This document shows positions 8,933-17,723 of a stretch of 64,000 bases of DNA, piece by piece. The notes under the pieces were generated by a model that worked only from the letters and a program-made list of their open reading frames with translations, had not been told where the DNA came from and did no database searches. Numbering within the stretch: the first letter of the stretch is position 1; every line of letters begins with the position of its first letter. Source of the stretch: Mesotoga prima MesG1.Ag.4.2 (GTDB lineage Bacteria; Thermotogota; Thermotogae; Petrotogales; Kosmotogaceae); NCBI RefSeq assembly GCF_000147715.2, contig NC_017934.1, positions 1,054,001 through 1,118,000 on the forward strand, written 5' to 3'. Position numbers and translations under genes: made by a program.

Positions 8933-10040
8933 GGTAATAATAGTTGGAGCAGGCCCCGCTGGACTCGCCGCCTCAAGAATCTTTGCCCGTGACGGAATAG
9001 ATTTCCTTCTTCTTGATTCTAAAAGCTTCCCACGAGAAAAGGGCTGCGGAGGGGGTTTGACGCCAAGATCTTTGAAGAGGGTCCACGAGATATTTCCCGA
9101 AGTGGATATCGAGGGCTTCGACTGTCACGAGTTAAGCATAAACAGGTTAATCGACGGACAGATGAAGCATCTTACTACTCTGATGTCAAAGAAGACAATA
9201 TTCAAAACTGTTGACAGGAAGGAATTTGATAATGCTCTTCTCAAATCCATAGTTGAGAGAGGCGGTAGATTCCTTTCTTCAAGAGTGAGAGAGATCGTGA
9301 AAGAGGAACAAGGTTTTGTCGTTAAGACAGATGAAAGAGAGTTGACCTCTGACTATGTAATCGTTTCGGCCGGCGTTTTTGGGGCAAAACTCCTTGGACA
9401 TGAACCACCCTCTTTTGGAGTTGCATATTATGGTTACAGCTCTCCCACGGGAAGTGCTTCCGTCACCTTTATCCCCAATGGTTACCTTTGGAGTTTCCCT
9501 GGTGAGTCTTTCGACTCTGTTGGAGGTGGGATTTACCCCGATTCGGAGAAGACTCCCTCTTATGAAGAGATGAGTACCTTGATAAAGAGATCTTTCGGTG
9601 AAGAGATTGATTTGCGGGGGACACCAATCCCTACTTTCAATACCGATGTAGTTCTTAGTTTGAACAACCTATACACGAATTTGCTGGTTGCAGGAGACAG
9701 CGCGGGACTTGTTGATAACTGGACGGGCGCCGGTATCGATTTTGCTCTCGATTCTGGCAGACAGGCTGCACTCTCGATCATTGAGGATGGTTACAAAGGC
9801 AAAACTGTTAACGAAAGATATCTTGAAAGGCTCTTCCCGGCAGCCAGGCATCTGCAAATCGCAGACGCCTTCAGAAAAAGGTTCAACAGGAATTTCGAAG
9901 AACATTTAGATCTTCTCAAGGGAAGAATGACTGGGAAACTTCTTTCTAACTATCTTGGCTACTACGTTAAGGGTCCTTACAGACTCGCATTCAAAAGCCT
10001 ATTCACTCGTGGAATCTCAAGTCGCCAACTACACTGCTGA
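8922..10040 (+). CDS. FAD-dependent oxidoreductase of the geranylgeranyl reductase family
   Basis: A 372-residue flavoprotein. The N-terminal dinucleotide fold has VIIVGAGPAGLAA (residues 5-17) and a DSKSFPREKGCGGGLTPR segment with the Cys found in the family; the FAD-binding GDSAGLVDNWTGAGID lies near 265-280. The mid-section PNGYLWSFPGESFDSVGGG matches the Y-x-W-x-F-P...V-G-x-G pattern of geranylgeranyl reductases, which saturate isoprenoid chains. It shares an operon with the MFS gene. Related proteins act on other lipids or quinones, so the substrate is open. Its 3' end overlaps the convergent ABC gene by 12 bases. Confidence 0.82.
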   Translation: MHSKVIIVGAGPAGLAASRIFARDGIDFLLLDSKSFPREKGCGGGLTPRSLKRVHEIFPEVDIEGFDCHELSINRLIDGQMKHLTTLMSKKTIFKTVDRKEFDNALLKSIVERGGRFLSSRVREIVKEEQGFVVKTDERELTSDYVIVSAGVFGAKLLGHEPPSFGVAYYGYSSPTGSASVTFIPNGYLWSFPGESFDSVGGGIYPDSEKTPSYEEMSTLIKRSFGEEIDLRGTPIPTFNTDVVLSLNNLYTNLLVAGDSAGLVDNWTGAGIDFALDSGRQAALSIIEDGYKGKTVNERYLERLFPAARHLQIADAFRKRFNRNFEEHLDLLKGRMTGKLLSNYLGYYVKGPYRLAFKSLFTRGISSRQLHC

Positions 10041-10748
10041 AGTCACCCGAGGAACGATATTTCTCATCCCGTCATTAACCACTTCGCCTTCCATCAGTCT
10101 CATCAGCCTTTCTCCATATGAATTAGCGATATCCATGTTGTGTGTGATCATGATTATCGTAATGTCATATTCTCTGTTTATCCTTTCAGTCAACTCCATG
10201 ACTCTGGAAGCGCTGTCAGGGTCTAGAGAAGCAGTGTGTTCGTCGAGAAGGAGAAGCCGCGGTTTCGACAAGATCGCCATCACCATGGCCAGAGACTGTT
10301 TCTGCCCACCTGAAAGCTCGCCTGCCTTGGTTTTCAGTCTGTCTTCGAGCCCCAGTCCCAGATCCCTTAGCAACGATATTGCCTCTTCTTTGACGGAACT
10401 GAACTTGAAAGGCCTATTTCCCTTCTTTGAGGCTATTATCAGATTTTCGGCAATGGTGAGGGCCGGAAATATGCCTGTGTTCGGATCCTGGTAAACCCTA
10501 CCGATGAACTCCGCAAGTTTGTGTGGCTTCATGTAATTCATTGTCTTACCGTCGATCATGTAGAGACCGGATGTCGGCTGAACCTCACCGAGTATCACCT
10601 TAAGAAGGGTGGATTTTCCCGCACCGTTTGGCCCCACGATTGTCACGAACTGCCCCTCTAGAACTGTGAGACTCACATTTTTCAGTGCCACCCTTTCGTT
10701 TTCCATCCCTGGATTGTATGTAACAGTCAGATCTTTGAATTCGACCAT
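10029..10748 (-). CDS. ABC transporter ATPase, TrpZ-like (putative aromatic amino acid importer)
   Basis: A 239-residue nucleotide-binding subunit. Walker A is GPNGAGKST, the signature is LSGGQKQS, Walker B is LLLLDEHTASLDP and the switch His is in MITHNMD. The Q-loop reads VYQDPNTG. It is the last gene of a three-gene unit (binding protein, permease, ATPase) and overlaps the permease gene by 22 bases. This transporter class is annotated as a putative tryptophan/tyrosine importer in other bacteria. Control by the upstream attenuator should extend to this gene. Confidence 0.9.
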   Translation of the reverse strand: MVEFKDLTVTYNPGMENERVALKNVSLTVLEGQFVTIVGPNGAGKSTLLKVILGEVQPTSGLYMIDGKTMNYMKPHKLAEFIGRVYQDPNTGIFPALTIAENLIIASKKGNRPFKFSSVKEEAISLLRDLGLGLEDRLKTKAGELSGGQKQSLAMVMAILSKPRLLLLDEHTASLDPDSASRVMELTERINREYDITIIMITHNMDIANSYGERLMRLMEGEVVNDGMRNIVPRVTSAV

Positions 10749-11740
10749 AACCTCTTCACCTCCTGCTTCACCTTTCGTTTACCTCCACTTGAAGAAAGCT
10801 GACGCAATCCAATAACCGTGATAATAAAAACTGCTGTGAGTAGTTTCATGTCGCTTGCAAGAAAGCCGATCCTATATCCGTATCTCATCGCTAGGGAGAG
10901 AAGTGCCTGATATATCACTCCACCCACTATTGGAGAAAGCAGGCCGTAGAAAAGCTTTACTCTCCCGAGAAGTATCTCGCCCATTATTACCGAAGCCAGT
11001 CCCGTTACAACCATTCCCTGCCCAATCGTTGCGTCAGAGAACCCACTGTAGAGGGCGAAAAGTCCGCCACTCAACCCTATAACGCAGTTGGCAATGGTAA
11101 GCCCCGCAATGGCAAGAACATCCTGGGATATTCCGAAAGACACCACCCCCGAGGGATTACTGCCAAATGCTCTCAGTGTCATTCCCGGGTCAGATTTCAA
11201 TGCAACCGACAGAACTACAACCACAGCAGAAATTAAGACAACTATTAGTAACAAGTCAGAACCATCGAGCTGGTTATTAAAGATATTCTTGGCAACTACC
11301 GTTGTTCTTGATTGGCGCTTCTCAGTGTTGATCTCAAGCTCTTCGAAAAGGTTATCTAGGCCAGTACCGCCGCTCATCTCCTCGAAGCTTTGAGTTGTCC
11401 CCTCTGGAACGACTCTTGGAACTGGGAGATTGGGTCCGCCCATTACCCTGAGATTGACTGAGTAAAGCATTGTCATGACCAAAATTCCGGCAAGAAGAAC
11501 GTTGATCTTGAGCTTTCTATGAATAGTCCCCGTAATGCTTCCGGCAATGGCTCCCGTTAAGGCGGCTAGCATTATCGCAATCCAGGCGGGAAGACCGGAG
11601 ACAAGTGCTTTTACGGCAACGGCTGCTCCGAGGGCAAAGGAACCGTCCGTCGTAAGATCGGGAAGATCAACAATTCTGAATGATATGTAGACTCCCAGGG
11701 CCATCAGGCCGATTATCAATCCCTGTTCCAGAATCGCCAT
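10727..11740 (-). CDS. ABC transporter permease, TrpY-like
   Basis: A 337-residue hydrophobic subunit of the COG4120 type, related to the LivH/BPD_transp_2 fold, with about 8-9 helices. It starts with an amphipathic segment and has the DLTTDGSFALGAA loop typical of this class. The hydrophilic insert around residues 110-165, with EEMSGGTGLDN and a Lys/Arg-rich part, is a loop between helices. It lies 4 bases downstream of the binding-protein gene and overlaps the ATPase gene. Confidence 0.88.
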   Translation of the reverse strand: MAILEQGLIIGLMALGVYISFRIVDLPDLTTDGSFALGAAVAVKALVSGLPAWIAIMLAALTGAIAGSITGTIHRKLKINVLLAGILVMTMLYSVNLRVMGGPNLPVPRVVPEGTTQSFEEMSGGTGLDNLFEELEINTEKRQSRTTVVAKNIFNNQLDGSDLLLIVVLISAVVVVLSVALKSDPGMTLRAFGSNPSGVVSFGISQDVLAIAGLTIANCVIGLSGGLFALYSGFSDATIGQGMVVTGLASVIMGEILLGRVKLFYGLLSPIVGGVIYQALLSLAMRYGYRIGFLASDMKLLTAVFIITVIGLRQLSSSGGKRKVKQEVKRLWSNSKI

Positions 11741-11744
11741 GAAC

Positions 11745-12716
11745 TTACCTTTCCGTCTCTACACCATCGGTTACTATCAGATTAGCCAGATCTAGGACCG
11801 ATTGTGGAATCTCTACGCCGATTTCTTCTGCGATGTCTGTGTTGACGAAAAGAATCAAGGAATCCTGTCCCAGTATCTTAGTTTCGAGTTCCGAAGGAGG
11901 AGTACCCTTAAGAATTTCAACAACCAGTTCTCCGGTGGCTCTACCGACCTGGTAGTAATTAAATCCAAAGCCGATCAGACCGCCAGATCTTGCAATATCT
12001 ATATCTCCCGCGACAATTGCGACCTTTTCTCTCAAGGCAACCGTAGAAATCGATTCTATGCTTGAGGCAGCAGTGTTATCTGTACCGATGTAGATTGCGT
12101 CTACATCTTTTATCTGGGCATTTAGAGAGGCGACCATTTCGGCGGTCGTAGAACCTGTGATATCTATTAGTTCTAGTCCAAGAGCGTCACAGGCTTCTTT
12201 GGCAAACTCCCTTATTGTCACGGAGTTGGCCTCTCCGGAATTGTAAATCACTCCCACCCTTTCGACATCCGGAAGAGTAAGTTTCAGCAGCTGAAGCTGG
12301 GTTTTTACAGGTGTCATGTCGCTTATCCCAACCACGTTTCCAGGGTTCTTTCCAAATGCCGGTACAAGGTTTGCGCTGACCGGATCGGTTACGGCGCTGA
12401 AAACCACGGGAATTGTCTTTGAAGCATTTACAAGTGCCTGAGCCGACGGAGTTGCTATTCCGACCATTACAGCTGCTTTTAATGATACGAACTGCTTTGC
12501 AATGGCTACCGCAGTGGAAACCGATCCCTGAGCATTCTGGAAGTCAATAACAATGTTGTCCCCATCCTTGAAGCCACTCTCTTCAAGAACATCGATAATT
12601 CCTTCCCTCACTGCATCAAGAGCCGGGTGCTCTACTATCGCTGTAATCCCAACTGTTTGAACAGACAAACCAAGAATCCCTACCAGTAGTAATAGACACA
12701 CAAGAACCTGCTTCAT
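11745..12716 (-). CDS. ABC transporter substrate-binding protein, TrpX-like
   Basis: A 323-residue exported binding protein of the COG2984 (ABC_sub_bind) family. The start at 12716 has GGAGGG about 7 bases upstream; the longer open frame starting at 12779 would run through the attenuator hairpin and is not used. Residues 1-22 are a signal peptide (MKQVLVCLLLLVGILGLS). The mature part has the family's LVNASKTIPVVFSAVTDP and PGNVVGISDMTPV segments. Homologues bind tryptophan or tyrosine or are uncharacterised. The aromatic leader peptide upstream makes an aromatic amino acid the likely substrate. Confidence 0.9.
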   Translation of the reverse strand: MKQVLVCLLLLVGILGLSVQTVGITAIVEHPALDAVREGIIDVLEESGFKDGDNIVIDFQNAQGSVSTAVAIAKQFVSLKAAVMVGIATPSAQALVNASKTIPVVFSAVTDPVSANLVPAFGKNPGNVVGISDMTPVKTQLQLLKLTLPDVERVGVIYNSGEANSVTIREFAKEACDALGLELIDITGSTTAEMVASLNAQIKDVDAIYIGTDNTAASSIESISTVALREKVAIVAGDIDIARSGGLIGFGFNYYQVGRATGELVVEILKGTPPSELETKILGQDSLILFVNTDIAEEIGVEIPQSVLDLANLIVTDGVETER

Positions 12717-12735
12717 TCTACATCCCTCCTGATAT

Positions 12736-12776
12736 AAAAAAAGAGAGAGGACGCTTCTCAACGTCCTCTCTCTTTT
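12736..12776 (-). terminator. Attenuator: intrinsic terminator inside the leader of the TrpXYZ-like operon
   Basis: On the minus strand AAAAGAGAGAGGACG and CGTCCTCTCTCTTTT pair perfectly (15 bp, 8-base loop) and are followed by a T run. The hairpin lies between the leader-peptide stop (12793) and the SD of the binding-protein gene (about 12726), so it must be bypassed for the operon to be expressed. Confidence 0.9.
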
Positions 12777-12839
12777 CACTCTCTAGTGTATTTTAACTCA
12801 AGCACACACTGGAGGAGTCCGAAGAAAGGACGTTCCTCC
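12760..12839 (-). promoter_or_regulatory. Competing antiterminator and anti-antiterminator segments of the attenuator
   Basis: Minus-strand bases 12834-12822 (AACGTCCTTTCTT) can pair with the 5' arm of the terminator, 12772-12760, in 13 consecutive pairs including two G-U, which prevents the terminator. The same bases can instead fold upstream: GGAGG at 12839-12835 with CCTCC at 12815-12811, and GTCC with GGAC inside. GGAGG begins in codon 16 of the leader peptide, just after its Tyr-Trp-Phe codons, so a ribosome stalled there would mask it and free the antiterminator strand. Confidence 0.75.
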
Positions 12840-12885
12840 TAAACCAATAAGCGTATGCAAAGCTTATGAATGTTGCTCGAGTCAT
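12793..12885 (-). CDS. Aromatic-rich leader peptide (30 residues) controlling the ABC operon
   Basis: ATG at 12885 is preceded, 8 bases away, by GGAGG (12898-12894). The peptide begins MTRATFISFAYAYWFRRN and ends at TAA 12793. Phe9, Tyr11, Tyr13, Trp14 and Phe15 fall within seven codons, directly before the segments that form alternative RNA hairpins. This is the layout of leader peptides of trp, phe and pheST operons, where ribosome stalling at scarce charged tRNA permits read-through. Function is inferred from this layout; the peptide itself need have no activity. It is too short for ordinary gene calling and would normally be missed. Confidence 0.8.
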   Translation of the reverse strand: MTRATFISFAYAYWFRRNVLSSDSSSVCLS

Positions 12886-12899
12886 CACATTTACCTCCG

Positions 12900-12919
12900 A
12901 ATTTCTTTGATAAGAAATT
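12900..12919. repeat. Perfect inverted repeat over the predicted transcription start
   Basis: AATTTCTT, TGAT, AAGAAATT. It touches the -10 box of the leader-peptide promoter and covers the expected start site, the position of a repressor operator; alternatively it is a 5'-end hairpin. Confidence 0.45.
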
Positions 12920-12947
12920 TATACCACAAATAAATGTTACGGATCAA
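12918..12947 (-). promoter_or_regulatory. Predicted sigma-A promoter of the attenuated ABC operon
   Basis: Minus strand: -35 TTGATC (12947-12942), 18-base spacer, -10 TATAAA (12923-12918). It lies 33 bases upstream of the leader-peptide ATG. Confidence 0.6.
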
Positions 12948-12973: not shown

Positions 12974-13912
12974 TTATGTTCTCTCTTCCCTCGAATAAGG
13001 CACACCCGATGAAGCGGGAGCCCCGACCTTGCGCTTCAAAGTGTCTGTTGAAGTGAAGAAGAGCACGACAATCGTCAGCAAATAAGGAAGCATCTTCAGA
13101 AAGTCGGGTGAAATATGAGCGCCGACGGCCTGCAATCGTAGTCCTAGGGCGGTTATCCCCCCAAAGAGATACGCACCGATCAAAGCTTTAACGGGATCCC
13201 AGGTGGCGAACAGAACCAAGGCTATCGCTATCCACCCTCTGCCCGCAGTCATGTTTTCTATCCACATGGAGTTGTAGGCAAGCGAGAGATAGGCGCCTCC
13301 AATGGCCGTTATCGATCCGCCGAGAACCGTGTAAAAATACCTCACCGCGAAGACATTTATTCCTTTAGCATCGGCAGCCTCGGGGGATTCTCCCACCGCT
13401 CTGAGAGTAAGACCTGGCTTTGTTTTATAAATGAAGAACCACATAATCGGGACAAGCACAAAACTAATATAAACGAGTACGTCATGATTGAAAAGAACCT
13501 GACCGATGTAAGGAATGTCCGAGAGGAAGGGAATCTTAATTGGCTCGAAACGCCTTGCAATTACACCGATATAGTCTTTCCCCCAGAGGCCGCTTATTCC
13601 GGTACCGAGCATAGTAATGGCCAGACCGCTGACAATCTGGTTGACTCTCAGTGTAACTGTGAAGAAGGCATGAACAAGACCAAGGATTGCACCTGCAAGC
13701 ATTGCCAAAAGTAAAGCCGCGAGAAGGTTCGATGTTTGATATGAAGCGACAAAGCCACCAATGGCACCAACAAGCATAAGACCTTCCAGTCCAAGATTCA
13801 TAACTCCAGACCGCTCGGTGAATATTGTGCCTAGAACGGCAAAGAGCAGTGGTGTTCCAGCCCTAATGGTGGCGTTGAGAGTCGAGAGAATAAACGATTC
13901 GATATTATTCAA
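12974..13912 (-). CDS. Nucleoside-type ABC transporter permease, NupQ/COG1079 family
   Basis: A 312-residue membrane subunit with about 8-9 helices, including FTERSGVMNLGLEGLMLVGA near residue 30 and VGESPEAADAKGIN near 195, both typical of the BPD_transp_2 permeases that work with BMP-type binding proteins. TTG start with GGAGG 9 bases upstream. It overlaps the preceding permease gene by 8 bases and is the last gene of the four-gene importer operon. The substrate (nucleosides or related compounds) is inferred from the family. Confidence 0.9.
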   Translation of the reverse strand: MNNIESFILSTLNATIRAGTPLLFAVLGTIFTERSGVMNLGLEGLMLVGAIGGFVASYQTSNLLAALLLAMLAGAILGLVHAFFTVTLRVNQIVSGLAITMLGTGISGLWGKDYIGVIARRFEPIKIPFLSDIPYIGQVLFNHDVLVYISFVLVPIMWFFIYKTKPGLTLRAVGESPEAADAKGINVFAVRYFYTVLGGSITAIGGAYLSLAYNSMWIENMTAGRGWIAIALVLFATWDPVKALIGAYLFGGITALGLRLQAVGAHISPDFLKMLPYLLTIVVLFFTSTDTLKRKVGAPASSGVPYSREERT

Positions 13913-15020
13913 TGTGAGCCGCCTCCTCTTTGACGATTCTCAGCCTGTATCTGGAGATTGTTTCTCCTCCGAGAAGAGAGAAGAGAACCAGCCCTTGAAA
14001 GACCGAGATCAGAGCCATGGGAAGCTTATAAAACATCTGAAGCTGATCGTTGCCCACCAGCAACCCGCCGAAGAGAAAGGAAACGAGTAGAATCGCAATC
14101 GGATTGAGTTTGGCCAGCCATGCCACTATGATCGCCGTGTAGCCGTATCCGGGAGAAAAGCCATGCTGAAGTCTATGCTGAACGCCCATCATCTGTACAG
14201 CCCCTCCAAGTCCGGCGATCGCTCCACTTACTACGAGAGCAATAATCGTGTACCTGACAATGCTTATTCCAGAATATCTTGCGGCCTGTGCGTTATCCCC
14301 GACGATTTTGGAATTCATTCCCCAACTTGTCTTCCTATAGACGTAAAACAGAACAACTGCAATAGCAACAGCGATGAAGAAGCCAACGTGAAACTCACCT
14401 TTGAAGAGAGTTGGAAGCCTAGCTTGATCCGGGAACGGAGCCGTTCCGGGGAATCCATAACCTTTCGGGTCTTTCCAGGGACCATAGACAAGATAATCCA
14501 CCCAGAAGATCGCGACGTAGTTGAGCATCAGAGTGACCACAATCTCATCTGTCTTTGCGAACGCTTTCATCAAAGCGGGAATCAAGGCCCACAGGCCACC
14601 GGCGACTGCACCCGTGATTGATAGAAGCAGTATCATTGCCAGAGGAGAGGAGACATCTTTGAAAAGAAAGAGAGCTCCCCACGTCGCGGCCAGGGCACCC
14701 ATATAGAGCTGACCCTCTCCGCCAATGTTCCAGATCTTCATCCTGTATGCAAATGACAGTCCCAACCCCACGAAGGCTAGCGGTACCATTCTCATCAGCG
14801 TGCTGAAGATCCCATACTTATTTGCAAAAGGCCATGTAAGCATTTCCTTGTATGCATCAAACGTCTCACGAAAGGCAAGTGAAAAAGACCCTAGTCTTCC
14901 GTAGAAAAACACCATCAAGATTATCCCCATTAAGACCAGTGCGGCTACCACAGAAAGAATTGGCACGAGAATCGACGAATACTTCGGAATAACCAGCCTC
15001 TTCTCTATCTTCACTCTCAT
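13905..15020 (-). CDS. Nucleoside-type ABC transporter permease, NupP/COG4603 family
   Basis: A 371-residue membrane subunit. It has the family's WNIGGEGQLYMGALAA segment near residue 95, TDEIVVTLMLNYVA near 175 and VVGDNAQAARYSGI near 240. It pairs with the 12974-13912 permease to form the channel. Its start overlaps the end of the ATPase gene by 4 bases (ATGA), a sign of coupled translation. Confidence 0.9.
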   Translation of the reverse strand: MRVKIEKRLVIPKYSSILVPILSVVAALVLMGIILMVFFYGRLGSFSLAFRETFDAYKEMLTWPFANKYGIFSTLMRMVPLAFVGLGLSFAYRMKIWNIGGEGQLYMGALAATWGALFLFKDVSSPLAMILLLSITGAVAGGLWALIPALMKAFAKTDEIVVTLMLNYVAIFWVDYLVYGPWKDPKGYGFPGTAPFPDQARLPTLFKGEFHVGFFIAVAIAVVLFYVYRKTSWGMNSKIVGDNAQAARYSGISIVRYTIIALVVSGAIAGLGGAVQMMGVQHRLQHGFSPGYGYTAIIVAWLAKLNPIAILLVSFLFGGLLVGNDQLQMFYKLPMALISVFQGLVLFSLLGGETISRYRLRIVKEEAAHIE

Positions 15021-16543
15021 GATATCTCGCCCCGCTTTGAGCCGGCCATCATAAACCCTATTTCCTCTGTGAAAGACGGGTCGGGAGGTGTATATCCCAT
15101 AATTTCGCCCTCGTAAATCACCGCTACTCTGTCTGAAAGTCTGAAGATTTCATATAGCTCTCCTGCAAGAAGAAGAATAGCAGCTCCCCTTTCTTTGTGA
15201 GCCAAGAGAGTTTTGTAGACGAATTCCATGGCTCCAATGTCAAGCCCTCTTGTAGGATGCTCCGCGATTATGAGACAGGGCTTTGTTGAAAGTTCCCTGG
15301 CGAGAACGAGCTTCTGCAGATTTCCCCCCGAAAGAAACCTAGCCTGGGTTTTCGTTGAAGGAGTCGATATTGAATAATCTGAGATCAACTCTTTGGCTGC
15401 CCTCTGCATTGCCCTCGTGTTCAGATTAAAGGGCGATTGAGGGAGATACATGGAGTAAGAGTTCTTCATGAACACGTTTTCTGTAATAGATAACGAAGGA
15501 CAAGTTGCAACGGCTCTCCTGTCCTGAGGAATGAAAGCTACACCACCCTTTATTCTTTGGGCGACGTCAGTGTGACGAAGTATCTTGTCGTTTAACACCA
15601 CTTTGCCCTGGACAGGTTTTCTAAGACCGTAAATTGCCTCTGCAAGTTCTCTCTGACCGTTTCCGGCGACCCCTGCAATACCCAATATTTCGCCAGATTT
15701 TATGCTCAGACTGAGATTTTTTACTGCTTCAAGATTCTTGTCATTCTTAACGGTGAGATTTTCTACCTGAAGTACCGTTTTTCCAGGTTCGGTCTTGGGT
15801 TTGTCGAAATCTAGCAACACATCTCTTCCCACCATCATTCTGACCAGGGAGCGTCTGTCTACTGAATCCCTTACCTCTGTTCCAACAACTTTTCCGCCCC
15901 TCAGAACGGTGACTCTGTCGCTAATCTCAAGAACCTCGTCCAGCTTGTGACTTATAAAAATCACCGATGAGCCCTCATTCACTAGCTTCCTCATAGCCTT
16001 GAACAGTATCTCCGTTTCCTGGGGAGTTAAGACGGCAGTCGGCTCATCAAGGATTATCACTTTAGCTCCAGTGTAAAGAAGTTTAAGAATTTCTATTCTC
16101 TGTTTCTCTCCCACCGAAAGAGTCCAGACCCGTGCCCTGGGATTGACTGGAAGATCATAGCTTTTGCCCAACTTTTCGATGCTTGATTCGACCGTTTTGG
16201 TTTTTATAAAGAAGCCCATTCCCTTAAGACCAAGAACAATGTTTTCGGCGACCGTGAACGACGGTACTACCGTGAAGTGCTGCTGAACCATACCTATCCC
16301 GTATTTCAGAGCATTGTGGGGAGAAGAGATGGAAATCTGCTTGCCCTCCATGAATATCTCTCCCTCATCGGCCTTGTATATACCGAACAGAATATTCATG
16401 AGTGTGGTCTTTCCGGCTCCATTTTCTCCAAGAAGAGCATGAACTTCGCCTTTTTTTAGGTCAAGAGAGATATTTTCATTTGCTATTACACCGGGAAAGG
16501 CTTTGGTGATGTTTCTCATTTCTAGGATCGGAAGATCGGCCAA
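15017..16543 (-). CDS. Nucleoside-type ABC transporter ATPase with two nucleotide-binding domains, NupO/COG3845
   Basis: A 508-residue tandem ATPase. Domain one has GENGAGKTT, LSVGEKQRIEIL and ILDEPTAVLTP; domain two has the degenerate P-loop GVAGNGQRELAEA, LSGGNLQKLVLAREL and an AEHPTRGLD Walker B in which the usual Asp-Glu is Ala-Glu. A weak catalytic second site is common in this family. TTG start with GGAG about 9 bases upstream. A GC hairpin separates it from the binding-protein gene, 54 bases away. Confidence 0.92.
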   Translation of the reverse strand: MADLPILEMRNITKAFPGVIANENISLDLKKGEVHALLGENGAGKTTLMNILFGIYKADEGEIFMEGKQISISSPHNALKYGIGMVQQHFTVVPSFTVAENIVLGLKGMGFFIKTKTVESSIEKLGKSYDLPVNPRARVWTLSVGEKQRIEILKLLYTGAKVIILDEPTAVLTPQETEILFKAMRKLVNEGSSVIFISHKLDEVLEISDRVTVLRGGKVVGTEVRDSVDRRSLVRMMVGRDVLLDFDKPKTEPGKTVLQVENLTVKNDKNLEAVKNLSLSIKSGEILGIAGVAGNGQRELAEAIYGLRKPVQGKVVLNDKILRHTDVAQRIKGGVAFIPQDRRAVATCPSLSITENVFMKNSYSMYLPQSPFNLNTRAMQRAAKELISDYSISTPSTKTQARFLSGGNLQKLVLARELSTKPCLIIAEHPTRGLDIGAMEFVYKTLLAHKERGAAILLLAGELYEIFRLSDRVAVIYEGEIMGYTPPDPSFTEEIGFMMAGSKRGEIS

Positions 16544-16571
16544 GTAATATCACTCCAAAGAAAGAAATCGA

Positions 16572-16587
16572 GGGGCCTGGCGGCCCC
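16572..16587 (-). terminator. Intercistronic hairpin between BMP protein and its ATPase
   Basis: On the minus strand GGGGCC, loop GCCA, GGCCCC, followed by a loose T-rich stretch. It is likely a leaky terminator or an mRNA end protector that keeps the binding protein more abundant than the rest. Confidence 0.55.
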
Positions 16588-16596
16588 CCAAAACTA

Positions 16597-17649
16597 TCAC
16601 TGAATCTTTCCAACTACATTGTTTACGAACCAGTCCATGCTAAGAAGCTCTGCGTCAGTTGGTCTTTCGCCTTCAGCATACCTTAGAGCTCCTGACTGAT
16701 CGTAGACTGGACCGTCAAACGGGTGGAACAGACCCTGAACTATTGCTTCTCTCATGGTCATCACGAGTTTTGCCACACCATCTGGAACAAGATCGGATAC
16801 AAAGATGTCGACAACACCTTCTTTGATCCCTCCCCAGTACTGTTCATTGGTCCAGGTTCCGTCCATGACATTTCTGACTACATATTCATAAAATGGACCC
16901 CAGTCCCAAACGGGGGCTGCGAGGAAAGCATTTGGCGCGAAGGCACTCATGTCACTGTTGTATCCTATTGAAAAGACACCTCTATCTTCTGCTGCCTGCT
17001 GGGGAGCCGGTGAATCCTGATGCTGTGTTATCAAGTCTGCACCAATATCCAGAAGTGATTCCGCTGCCTCTTTCTCTCTTGCCGGATCAAACCAGGTGTT
17101 GGACCAGACTACATGGACCTTTACCTCGGGGTTAACGTACTGGACACCCATCGCAAAGGCGTTAATTCCACGTATTACCTCAGGTATTGGATAGGCGGCG
17201 ACGTAACCAATAATGTTGGTTTTCGTCATTGCTCCTGCGATCAGACCGCTAAGGAATCTCGGCTCATACATTCTTCCAAAATAGGTGCCGAGATTATCGG
17301 TGGTCATGTAACCTGAACAATGCATAAACGTTGAATTCGGGAAGGCCTGTGATACCTTTACCATACTGTCCATGTAGCCGAAGCTGGTCCCGAAGATGAG
17401 GTCGTATCCTCTTTGGGCATAACCTCTAAATACAACTTCCGCCTCAGCTCCTTCAGGTACGCTCTCAATGAAATCAGTAACGATTTGATCGCCGAAGACT
17501 CTTTCCAGGTGTAGTCTACCCTCGTTATGCATTGTGCTCCAGCCACCATCGCCCACCGGTGCAACATAAATGAAGGCTACTTTTAGTGGTGCTGCCAGAA
17601 GAGCTGCAGCAATCAGAATCATTGAGAAAAACAGGAAGATCTTCCTCAC
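16597..17649 (-). CDS. BMP-family (BmpA/TmpC-like) ABC transporter substrate-binding protein
   Basis: A 350-residue exported binding protein. Residues 1-20 form a signal peptide; the mature N-terminus has KVAFIYVAPVGDGGWS, the hallmark of the family that binds nucleosides such as guanosine or inosine. DLITQHQDSPAPQQAAED and GYNSDMSAFAP in the middle are ligand-site segments. Two starts are possible: GTG at 17649, 8 bases from GGGGG, or ATG at 17655, only 2 bases from it; spacing favours the GTG. No lipobox Cys is seen, so it is probably a soluble periplasmic protein held by the toga. First gene of the four-gene importer. Confidence 0.9.
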   Translation of the reverse strand: MRKIFLFFSMILIAAALLAAPLKVAFIYVAPVGDGGWSTMHNEGRLHLERVFGDQIVTDFIESVPEGAEAEVVFRGYAQRGYDLIFGTSFGYMDSMVKVSQAFPNSTFMHCSGYMTTDNLGTYFGRMYEPRFLSGLIAGAMTKTNIIGYVAAYPIPEVIRGINAFAMGVQYVNPEVKVHVVWSNTWFDPAREKEAAESLLDIGADLITQHQDSPAPQQAAEDRGVFSIGYNSDMSAFAPNAFLAAPVWDWGPFYEYVVRNVMDGTWTNEQYWGGIKEGVVDIFVSDLVPDGVAKLVMTMREAIVQGLFHPFDGPVYDQSGALRYAEGERPTDAELLSMDWFVNNVVGKIQ

Positions 17650-17694
17650 TGTCATTACCCCCTTTGTAGTGGAATAGGTTATCCTGACGTAGAA

Positions 17695-17723
17695 ATTATA
17701 CATTTATGAGCTTGCCAATCCAA
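17695..17723 (-). promoter_or_regulatory. Predicted promoter of the BMP/Nup-type operon
   Basis: Minus strand: -35 TTGGAT (17723-17718), 17-base spacer, perfect -10 TATAAT (17700-17695), about 46 bases before the start codon. Confidence 0.7.

Follow-up and report, generated by a model that had tools for sequence, protein, structure and literature searches.

A candidate ribosome-mediated attenuator with Tyr, Trp and Phe codons upstream of an aromatic amino acid importer in Mesotoga prima and other Thermotogota

We report a putative ribosome-mediated transcription attenuator on the minus strand of the Mesotoga prima window (the whole stretch of 64,000 nucleotides that was analyzed). In response to a shortage of charged tRNA-Tyr, tRNA-Trp or tRNA-Phe it raises, with a probability of about 0.88, the expression of the genes for an ABC importer of aromatic amino acids. 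Computation shows the parts, how they are conserved, how the stems covary, where the aromatic codons stand and how these codons change with the operon or paralogue served; we infer stalling of the ribosome at each of the control codons, efficient termination in vivo, and both sensing and transport of all three amino acids. The site possesses a translatable open reading frame with Shine-Dalgarno sequence and start codon, control codons placed to free an antiterminator, and an antiterminator and a terminator that exclude each other, the latter being intrinsic with a T run. Its parts and the genes behind it are the following.

12947-12736, minus strand: whole attenuator module (sequence)
12942-12947, minus strand: promoter -35 element TTGATC (sequence; relatives keep TTGATC, TTGACC or TTGACA)
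12918-12923, minus strand: promoter -10 element TATAAA, with TGG before it an extended -10, TGGTATAAA (sequence; kept in relatives)
12894-12898, minus strand: Shine-Dalgarno sequence GGAGG of the leader peptide (sequence)
12793-12885, minus strand: leader peptide frame, MTRATFISFAYAYWFRRNVLSSDSSSVCLS and stop (sequence; frame and aromatic run kept in all 47 relatives)
12841-12849, minus strand: core control codons Tyr13-Trp14-Phe15, TAT TGG TTT (offsets -5, -4 and -3 from the antiterminator arm)
12834-12839, minus strand: region 1, 5' arm of the 1:2 hairpin, GGAGGA (folding, covariation)
12831-12828 with 12820-12817, minus strand: inner 1:2 pairing GTCC/GGAC, enclosed by GGAGGA/TCCTCC
12811-12816, minus strand: 3' arm of the 1:2 hairpin, TCCTCC (folding, covariation)
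12822-12834, minus strand: region 2, 5' arm of the antiterminator, AACGTCCTTTCTT (arm comparison across leaders, covariation)
12760-12777, minus strand: region 3, 5' arm of the terminator, of which 12772-12760 doubles as 3' arm of the antiterminator
12736-12755, minus strand: region 4, 3' arm of the terminator and T run (sequence, folding, covariation)
12725-12730, minus strand: Shine-Dalgarno sequence AGGAGG of the binding-protein gene (sequence)
11745-12716, minus strand: TrpX-like substrate-binding protein (PF04392), 323 aa (family match)
10727-11740, minus strand: TrpY-like permease, BPD_transp_2 (family match)
10029-10748, minus strand: TrpZ-like ABC ATPase (family match)

The promoter elements are spaced by 18 nt, and the leader frame runs over 30 codons from the ATG at 12885 to the stop codon TAA at 12795-12793, with aromatic residues at F9, Y11, Y13, W14 and F15. 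Promoter, Shine-Dalgarno sequence, peptide and the 13-bp antiterminator (12834-12822 with 12772-12760, two of the pairs being G-U) were all found as the initial annotation had described them. It had also listed a 15-bp terminator and an alternative hairpin starting just after the aromatic codons. The terminator hairpin with its T run is present, but its stem is slightly longer, with 18 bp (12777-12760 with 12755-12738) around a GAGA loop; the alternative hairpin is present as well, but is not confined to the sequence after the aromatic codons, since codons 10-12 can be part of its outer arm (12858-12850 with 12810-12802).

The mechanism we propose is that a ribosome waiting at Tyr13, Trp14 or Phe15 would cover region 1 (12839-12834), and all or most of region 2 (12834-12822) would stay available for pairing with region 3 (12772-12760). 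In that case no terminator would form, and RNA polymerase would run on into the trpX-like, permease and ATPase genes. If no ribosome is present, or once it has moved on, pairing would be 1:2 and 3:4, and the terminator so formed would stop transcription near 12736. The 3' edge of the ribosome was assumed to lie approximately 16 nt past the first base of the P site. With Trp14 in the A site this assumed edge falls at about 12833, so that GGAGGA is covered and region 2 is left nearly whole, which agrees with the earlier proposal that a ribosome at Trp14 covers GGAGG (12839-12835) and frees the sequence from GTCC onward. The positions of Tyr13 and Phe15 would flank this optimum. In masked-footprint folding, a ribosome past Arg16 covers region 2 and abolishes the antiterminator.

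The RNA from 12842 to 12733 folds at -50 kcal/mol (z = -7.0, with none of 200 shuffles as good), and the antiterminator segment has z = -5.3 in the shuffle comparison. The full RNA without a ribosome folds as 1:2 hairpin plus terminator. If the RNA ends with region 3, the antiterminator is favored over the 1:2 hairpin at equilibrium even without a ribosome, and the off state must therefore rely on the order of folding, on coupling and on region 4. Masked-footprint folding at equilibrium brought out no decisive role for region 1, because the antiterminator wins whenever region 2 is free; all it confirmed is where the effective range of codon offsets ends downstream, at approximately offset -3. 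In E. coli trpL the stop codon lies between regions 1 and 2 and the terminating ribosome sits on region 2; here the leader stop codon lies about 30 nt (median) beyond region 2, and a terminating ribosome is therefore not sitting on it.

To describe the distribution of the leader, 103 Thermotogota genomes were surveyed, 40 of which contain the binding protein (47 genes). The initial annotation had named an alignment of the leader across this phylum as a check on its reading; a leader frame and a terminator precede all 47 genes, with the aromatic codons in a fixed register. A Shine-Dalgarno-like motif lies upstream of 46 of these leaders, the exception (L011) being cut at a contig end. The aromatic runs themselves vary, from FAYAYWFRR in the source genus and FAYAYWWFRG in its Pseudothermotoga relatives to YFYFWYWKD and YYYWYGKG in family f2 and VYYFRR in G014. 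If the register is counted from the first codon of the antiterminator arm, aromatic residues occupy offsets -5, -4 and -3 in 91, 96 and 96% of the 47 leaders, and offsets 0 to +2 in 0%. Throughout the source genus Tyr, Trp and Phe hold the three consecutive core positions, and codon 9 swaps between TTT and TAC, aromatic for aromatic. One leader (L037) has one in-frame TGG fewer than its family. Tyr occurs in the control window of 42 of the 47 transporter leaders, the five without it being leaders of paralogues. All three aromatic residues fall within this control window in 34 of 47, and the leaders of trp operons and of several duplicated transporters hold a single residue; this gives strong, if indirect, support to the earlier suggestion that the leader senses all three. 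Outside the phylum, none of the 72 nearest loci shows a leader of this kind followed by a terminator; the lone weak leader candidate (L063) has no terminator. This rules out the leader as a trait of the transporter family everywhere.

To count covariation in both hairpins, the other comparative check named at the outset, the structure of 14 leaders (two families) was written by hand, because automatic calls of the 1:2 hairpin chose different helices in some leaders. In the terminator and 1:2 hairpin 94.6% of the cells are paired and 10 pairs have both sides changed; in the antiterminator 90% of the cells are paired and five pairs have double changes. One must keep in mind that related sequences are not independent, so that covariation and shuffle counts are descriptive; compensatory changes are nevertheless found, and none of 500 shuffles and no slid version reaches the observed covariation scores. 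In distant leaders arms of unrelated sequence are still complementary (GGCATCCAC/GTGGATGCC, AGACACCCA/TGGGTGTCT, ACACTCGTTCAAGT/ATTTGAGCGAGTGT). When the antiterminators were compared to shuffles, again descriptively, 31 of the 47 leaders reached the floor of p = 1/301; the weak ones were mainly L010, L015, L016, G051a and G033b. The g15 leaders, L010 and two G033 leaders have short antiterminator arms that are not clearly above shuffles. A separate observation concerns L031-L037 (for example L033), in which the region 1 sequence AGGGGAA recurs after the leader stop codon (AGGGGAATC), providing a second partner for the 3' arm of the 1:2 hairpin within the antiterminator loop.

The binding protein scores 271 bits against PF04392 and 263.2 bits against the TrpX equivalog model NF041285, which is under the curated cut-off of 390. 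Its solved relatives VC_1101, CD0873 and SP1069 belong to the same family and bind Phe, Tyr and Trp, respectively (PMC6816091). The residues that hold the ligand backbone in S. suis TrpX (T108, A127, T129, D152, N233) correspond to T89, A108, T110, D133 and N214 of the window protein and are invariant or nearly so. An aromatic amino acid as substrate, as initially assigned, is thus consistent with the retained ligands. Two specificity positions were named for this family, the Tyr-hydroxyl position (Glu263 of CD0873) and the position of Tyr279 in CD0873 and Gln284 in SP1069 (PMC6816091). The window protein has Asp238 (codon 12005-12003) at the former, a conservative change from Glu, and Tyr254 at the latter, where all 47 Thermotogota proteins have Tyr in place of the Trp-type Gln. 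By these two-position rules the pocket looks closest to the Tyr type and not to the Trp type. The label TrpXYZ-type therefore holds for the family, but not for a TrpX equivalog, given the score below the cut-off, the missing Trp-type Gln and the Tyr-type-looking pocket; Trp as the sole substrate, as the family name would have it, is weakened by the same residues. A BMP-type (PnrA-like) ABC transporter operon occupies 12974-17703 of the window on the minus strand and ends 27 bp upstream of the attenuator promoter, and the terminator of the attenuator may also end read-through transcripts from it.

Leaders on other operons carry other codons. Before trpE we found Trp-only or Trp-rich leaders (NWWWHL, NWWWLWG, NNCWWHRE; L142-L145, L253, L254, L255), with Trp-only leaders ending in NWWWHL on the trp operons of family f2. 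The shikimate operons of many families have Tyr-rich leaders, such as NKYYWYFSKTP in f2 and NYYYYGRTRF in f5, and in family f11 (L156-L160, L163, L165) a leader containing NYYYFWFNRGTCP and a terminator stand before DAHP synthase, conserved in the genus. In the source genome attenuators were sought with the model R1 and in selected stretches. Its shikimate/tyrA operon (DAHP synthase, aroA, aroE, aroC, aroKB, aroQ, tyrA) is fronted at L141:1514-1670 (G000 C1, about 1967513) by the leader MIDFRFSWINAYSYYYNNRSICL with the Tyr-rich segment WINAYSYYYNNR and the terminator GGGTCTCC/GGAGACCC; the antiterminator seems to be built differently. No Phe leader was visible in this search on the prephenate dehydratase gene. 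A covariance model built from transporter leaders also matches the aro operon (114.9 bits) and the trp operon (62.9 bits) of G066, where the leaders read FFYAYWFRG (aro), NWWWLWG (trp) and FSYAYWFRG (transporter). One RNA module is present in G066 on all three operons, its codons differing by operon.

Transporters present in a single copy mostly have leaders with a mixture of Tyr, Trp and Phe. The transporter tree places duplications in three lineages. In G039 and G051, with three copies each, one leader is of the Phe kind (FxFAF), one is mixed (YxFWY) and one is of the Tyr kind (YAYY); of the two G013 leaders one is mixed and the other has WWW; in G033 we found WWW, FSFF and a mixture. As read from these codons, the leaders of some duplicated importers are re-coded to Phe-only, Trp-only or Tyr-only. 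The binding proteins behind all 42 leaders with Tyr in the control window have the Tyr-hydroxyl Asp. Of the five proteins behind Tyr-less leaders, three have Phe in its place (by the tree, G039a/G051a as one event and G013b as a second, independent one), and the other two, G033a and G033b, retain Asp. Small as these numbers are, they are suggestive of a loss of leader Tyr that goes with the loss of the Tyr-hydroxyl Asp, twice. A wider reading appears somewhat more likely than not: a phylum-wide, codon-programmable attenuator of aromatic metabolism, in which the RNA frame is fixed, a stretch of three codons sets the amino acid that is sensed, and the module has passed from one to another of the trp, shikimate and transporter operons, its codons changing along with the pocket upon duplication of the importer.

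A further hint arises from the metabolic setting. The genes trpE and trpA are missing from the source genome and genus, and the genome has prephenate dehydratase and prephenate dehydrogenase; Trp should therefore need import, and Phe and Tyr can be made. The central position of Trp in the leader and the Tyr leader on the shikimate operon would fit this setting. The lack of trpE and trpA also speaks for an alternative in which the same attenuator answers to a single signal, Tyr or, in these Trp auxotrophs, Trp, the other aromatic codons being incidental or retained for the sake of the RNA structure. Only five of the transporter leaders, all of them of paralogues, lack Tyr, the pocket has the Tyr-type Asp and Tyr instead of the Trp-type Gln, and codons 10-12 also take part in the outer stem of the 1:2 hairpin. 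We still regard this alternative as rather unlikely: Tyr, Trp and Phe hold their three core positions genus-wide, the change at codon 9 is from TTT to TAC, and leaders with a single residue are found on operons for which one amino acid would be expected, as with WWW on trp operons, so that the mixed codons look selected.

That a T-box, a metabolite riboswitch or a protein controls the attenuation, with the small frame being incidental, is very improbable, even if streptococcal TrpXYZ operons are T-box-controlled (PMC9382623). No Rfam family, the T-box model (stem I specifier, T-box antiterminator) and the amino acid leader families included, matched the window at gathering scores, with matches at chance level only below them, and T-boxes as well as other known RNA families were discarded for this reason. 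The conserved frame and codon register, with in-frame gain or loss of codons such as the one TGG fewer in L037, also argue against it, and T-boxes are reported to be restricted to other phyla (PMC3766115).

We further scanned for modules of Shine-Dalgarno sequence, aromatic-rich short frame and terminator. On both strands of the window this site was the single match; five Markov-shuffled copies of the window and 480 kb of relatives from non-Thermotogota phyla gave none, and a chance combination of frame and terminator was discarded by these controls. An ordinary terminator of the BMP-type operon ending at 12974 plus a chance frame is hardly credible: no other strong terminator is listed between 12974 and the leader, but the antiterminator covaries, the scan finds no chance equivalents, and the module also occurs in relatives whose upstream region is quite unlike that of the window, as in L033-L035 with their apparent tRNA gene.

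The preferred reading, a leader-peptide attenuator, places the site beside the ribosome-mediated attenuation of the E. coli trpL type, known from trp, phe, his, thr, leu and ilv leaders. Both have a leader peptide with control codons, exclusive 1:2, 2:3 and 3:4 pairings and an intrinsic terminator before the first structural gene. Unlike that type, the window leader combines codons for Tyr, Trp and Phe, belongs to an importer, has region 2 within the leader frame and has no match to Rfam leader families. Multivalent attenuation, with several amino acids per leader, is represented by the enterobacterial ilvGMEDA and thr leaders; these read branched-chain amino acids or Thr/Ile on biosynthetic operons, whereas the window leader reads aromatics on a transporter. 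The homologous trpXYZ transporter of Streptococcus suis and S. pneumoniae is likewise controlled by transcription attenuation according to aminoacyl-tRNA supply, but its T-box reads uncharged tRNA-Trp directly and thereby one amino acid, in place of a translated leader with several codons (PMC9382623). Tyrosine control is usually ascribed to T-boxes (PMC1262725), and attenuators with a leader peptide have been described chiefly in Proteobacteria and Actinobacteria (PMC2965389). The His leader peptides of Firmicutes are, as here, peptide leaders in place of T-boxes outside these two phyla, and differ from the window leader in phylum, amino acid and target genes (PMC2965389).

A search of openly searchable papers found nothing on point for Thermotoga and leader peptides. 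Vitreschak et al. 2004 reportedly mention Thermotogales attenuators. The class of attenuation is known; by the searchable literature the tri-aromatic importer version and the re-coding after duplication appear to be new. If true, a deep-branching, largely thermophilic phylum would use peptide leaders across its aromatic metabolism, importer included, and the leader would represent a readable label of each transporter's substrate. The duplicated importers would provide a natural experiment in which leader codons predict the substrate, and the Tyr-rich leaders before DAHP synthase in f11 and other families make the idea testable in culturable species.

Two minor observations concern single genomes. 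In G033, copies b and c have the first part of the leader peptide in common, and the binding-protein gene of copy c (L043, G033 C5) apparently contains a partial internal repeat across an assembly N run. At L256:505-700 (G041 C43) a leader containing SAWWWHRSLFFEG and a terminator lie upstream of ferredoxin-like and aldehyde:ferredoxin oxidoreductase-like genes, which were named by eye from the sequence; this suggests a Trp-linked function for the oxidoreductase-like enzyme.
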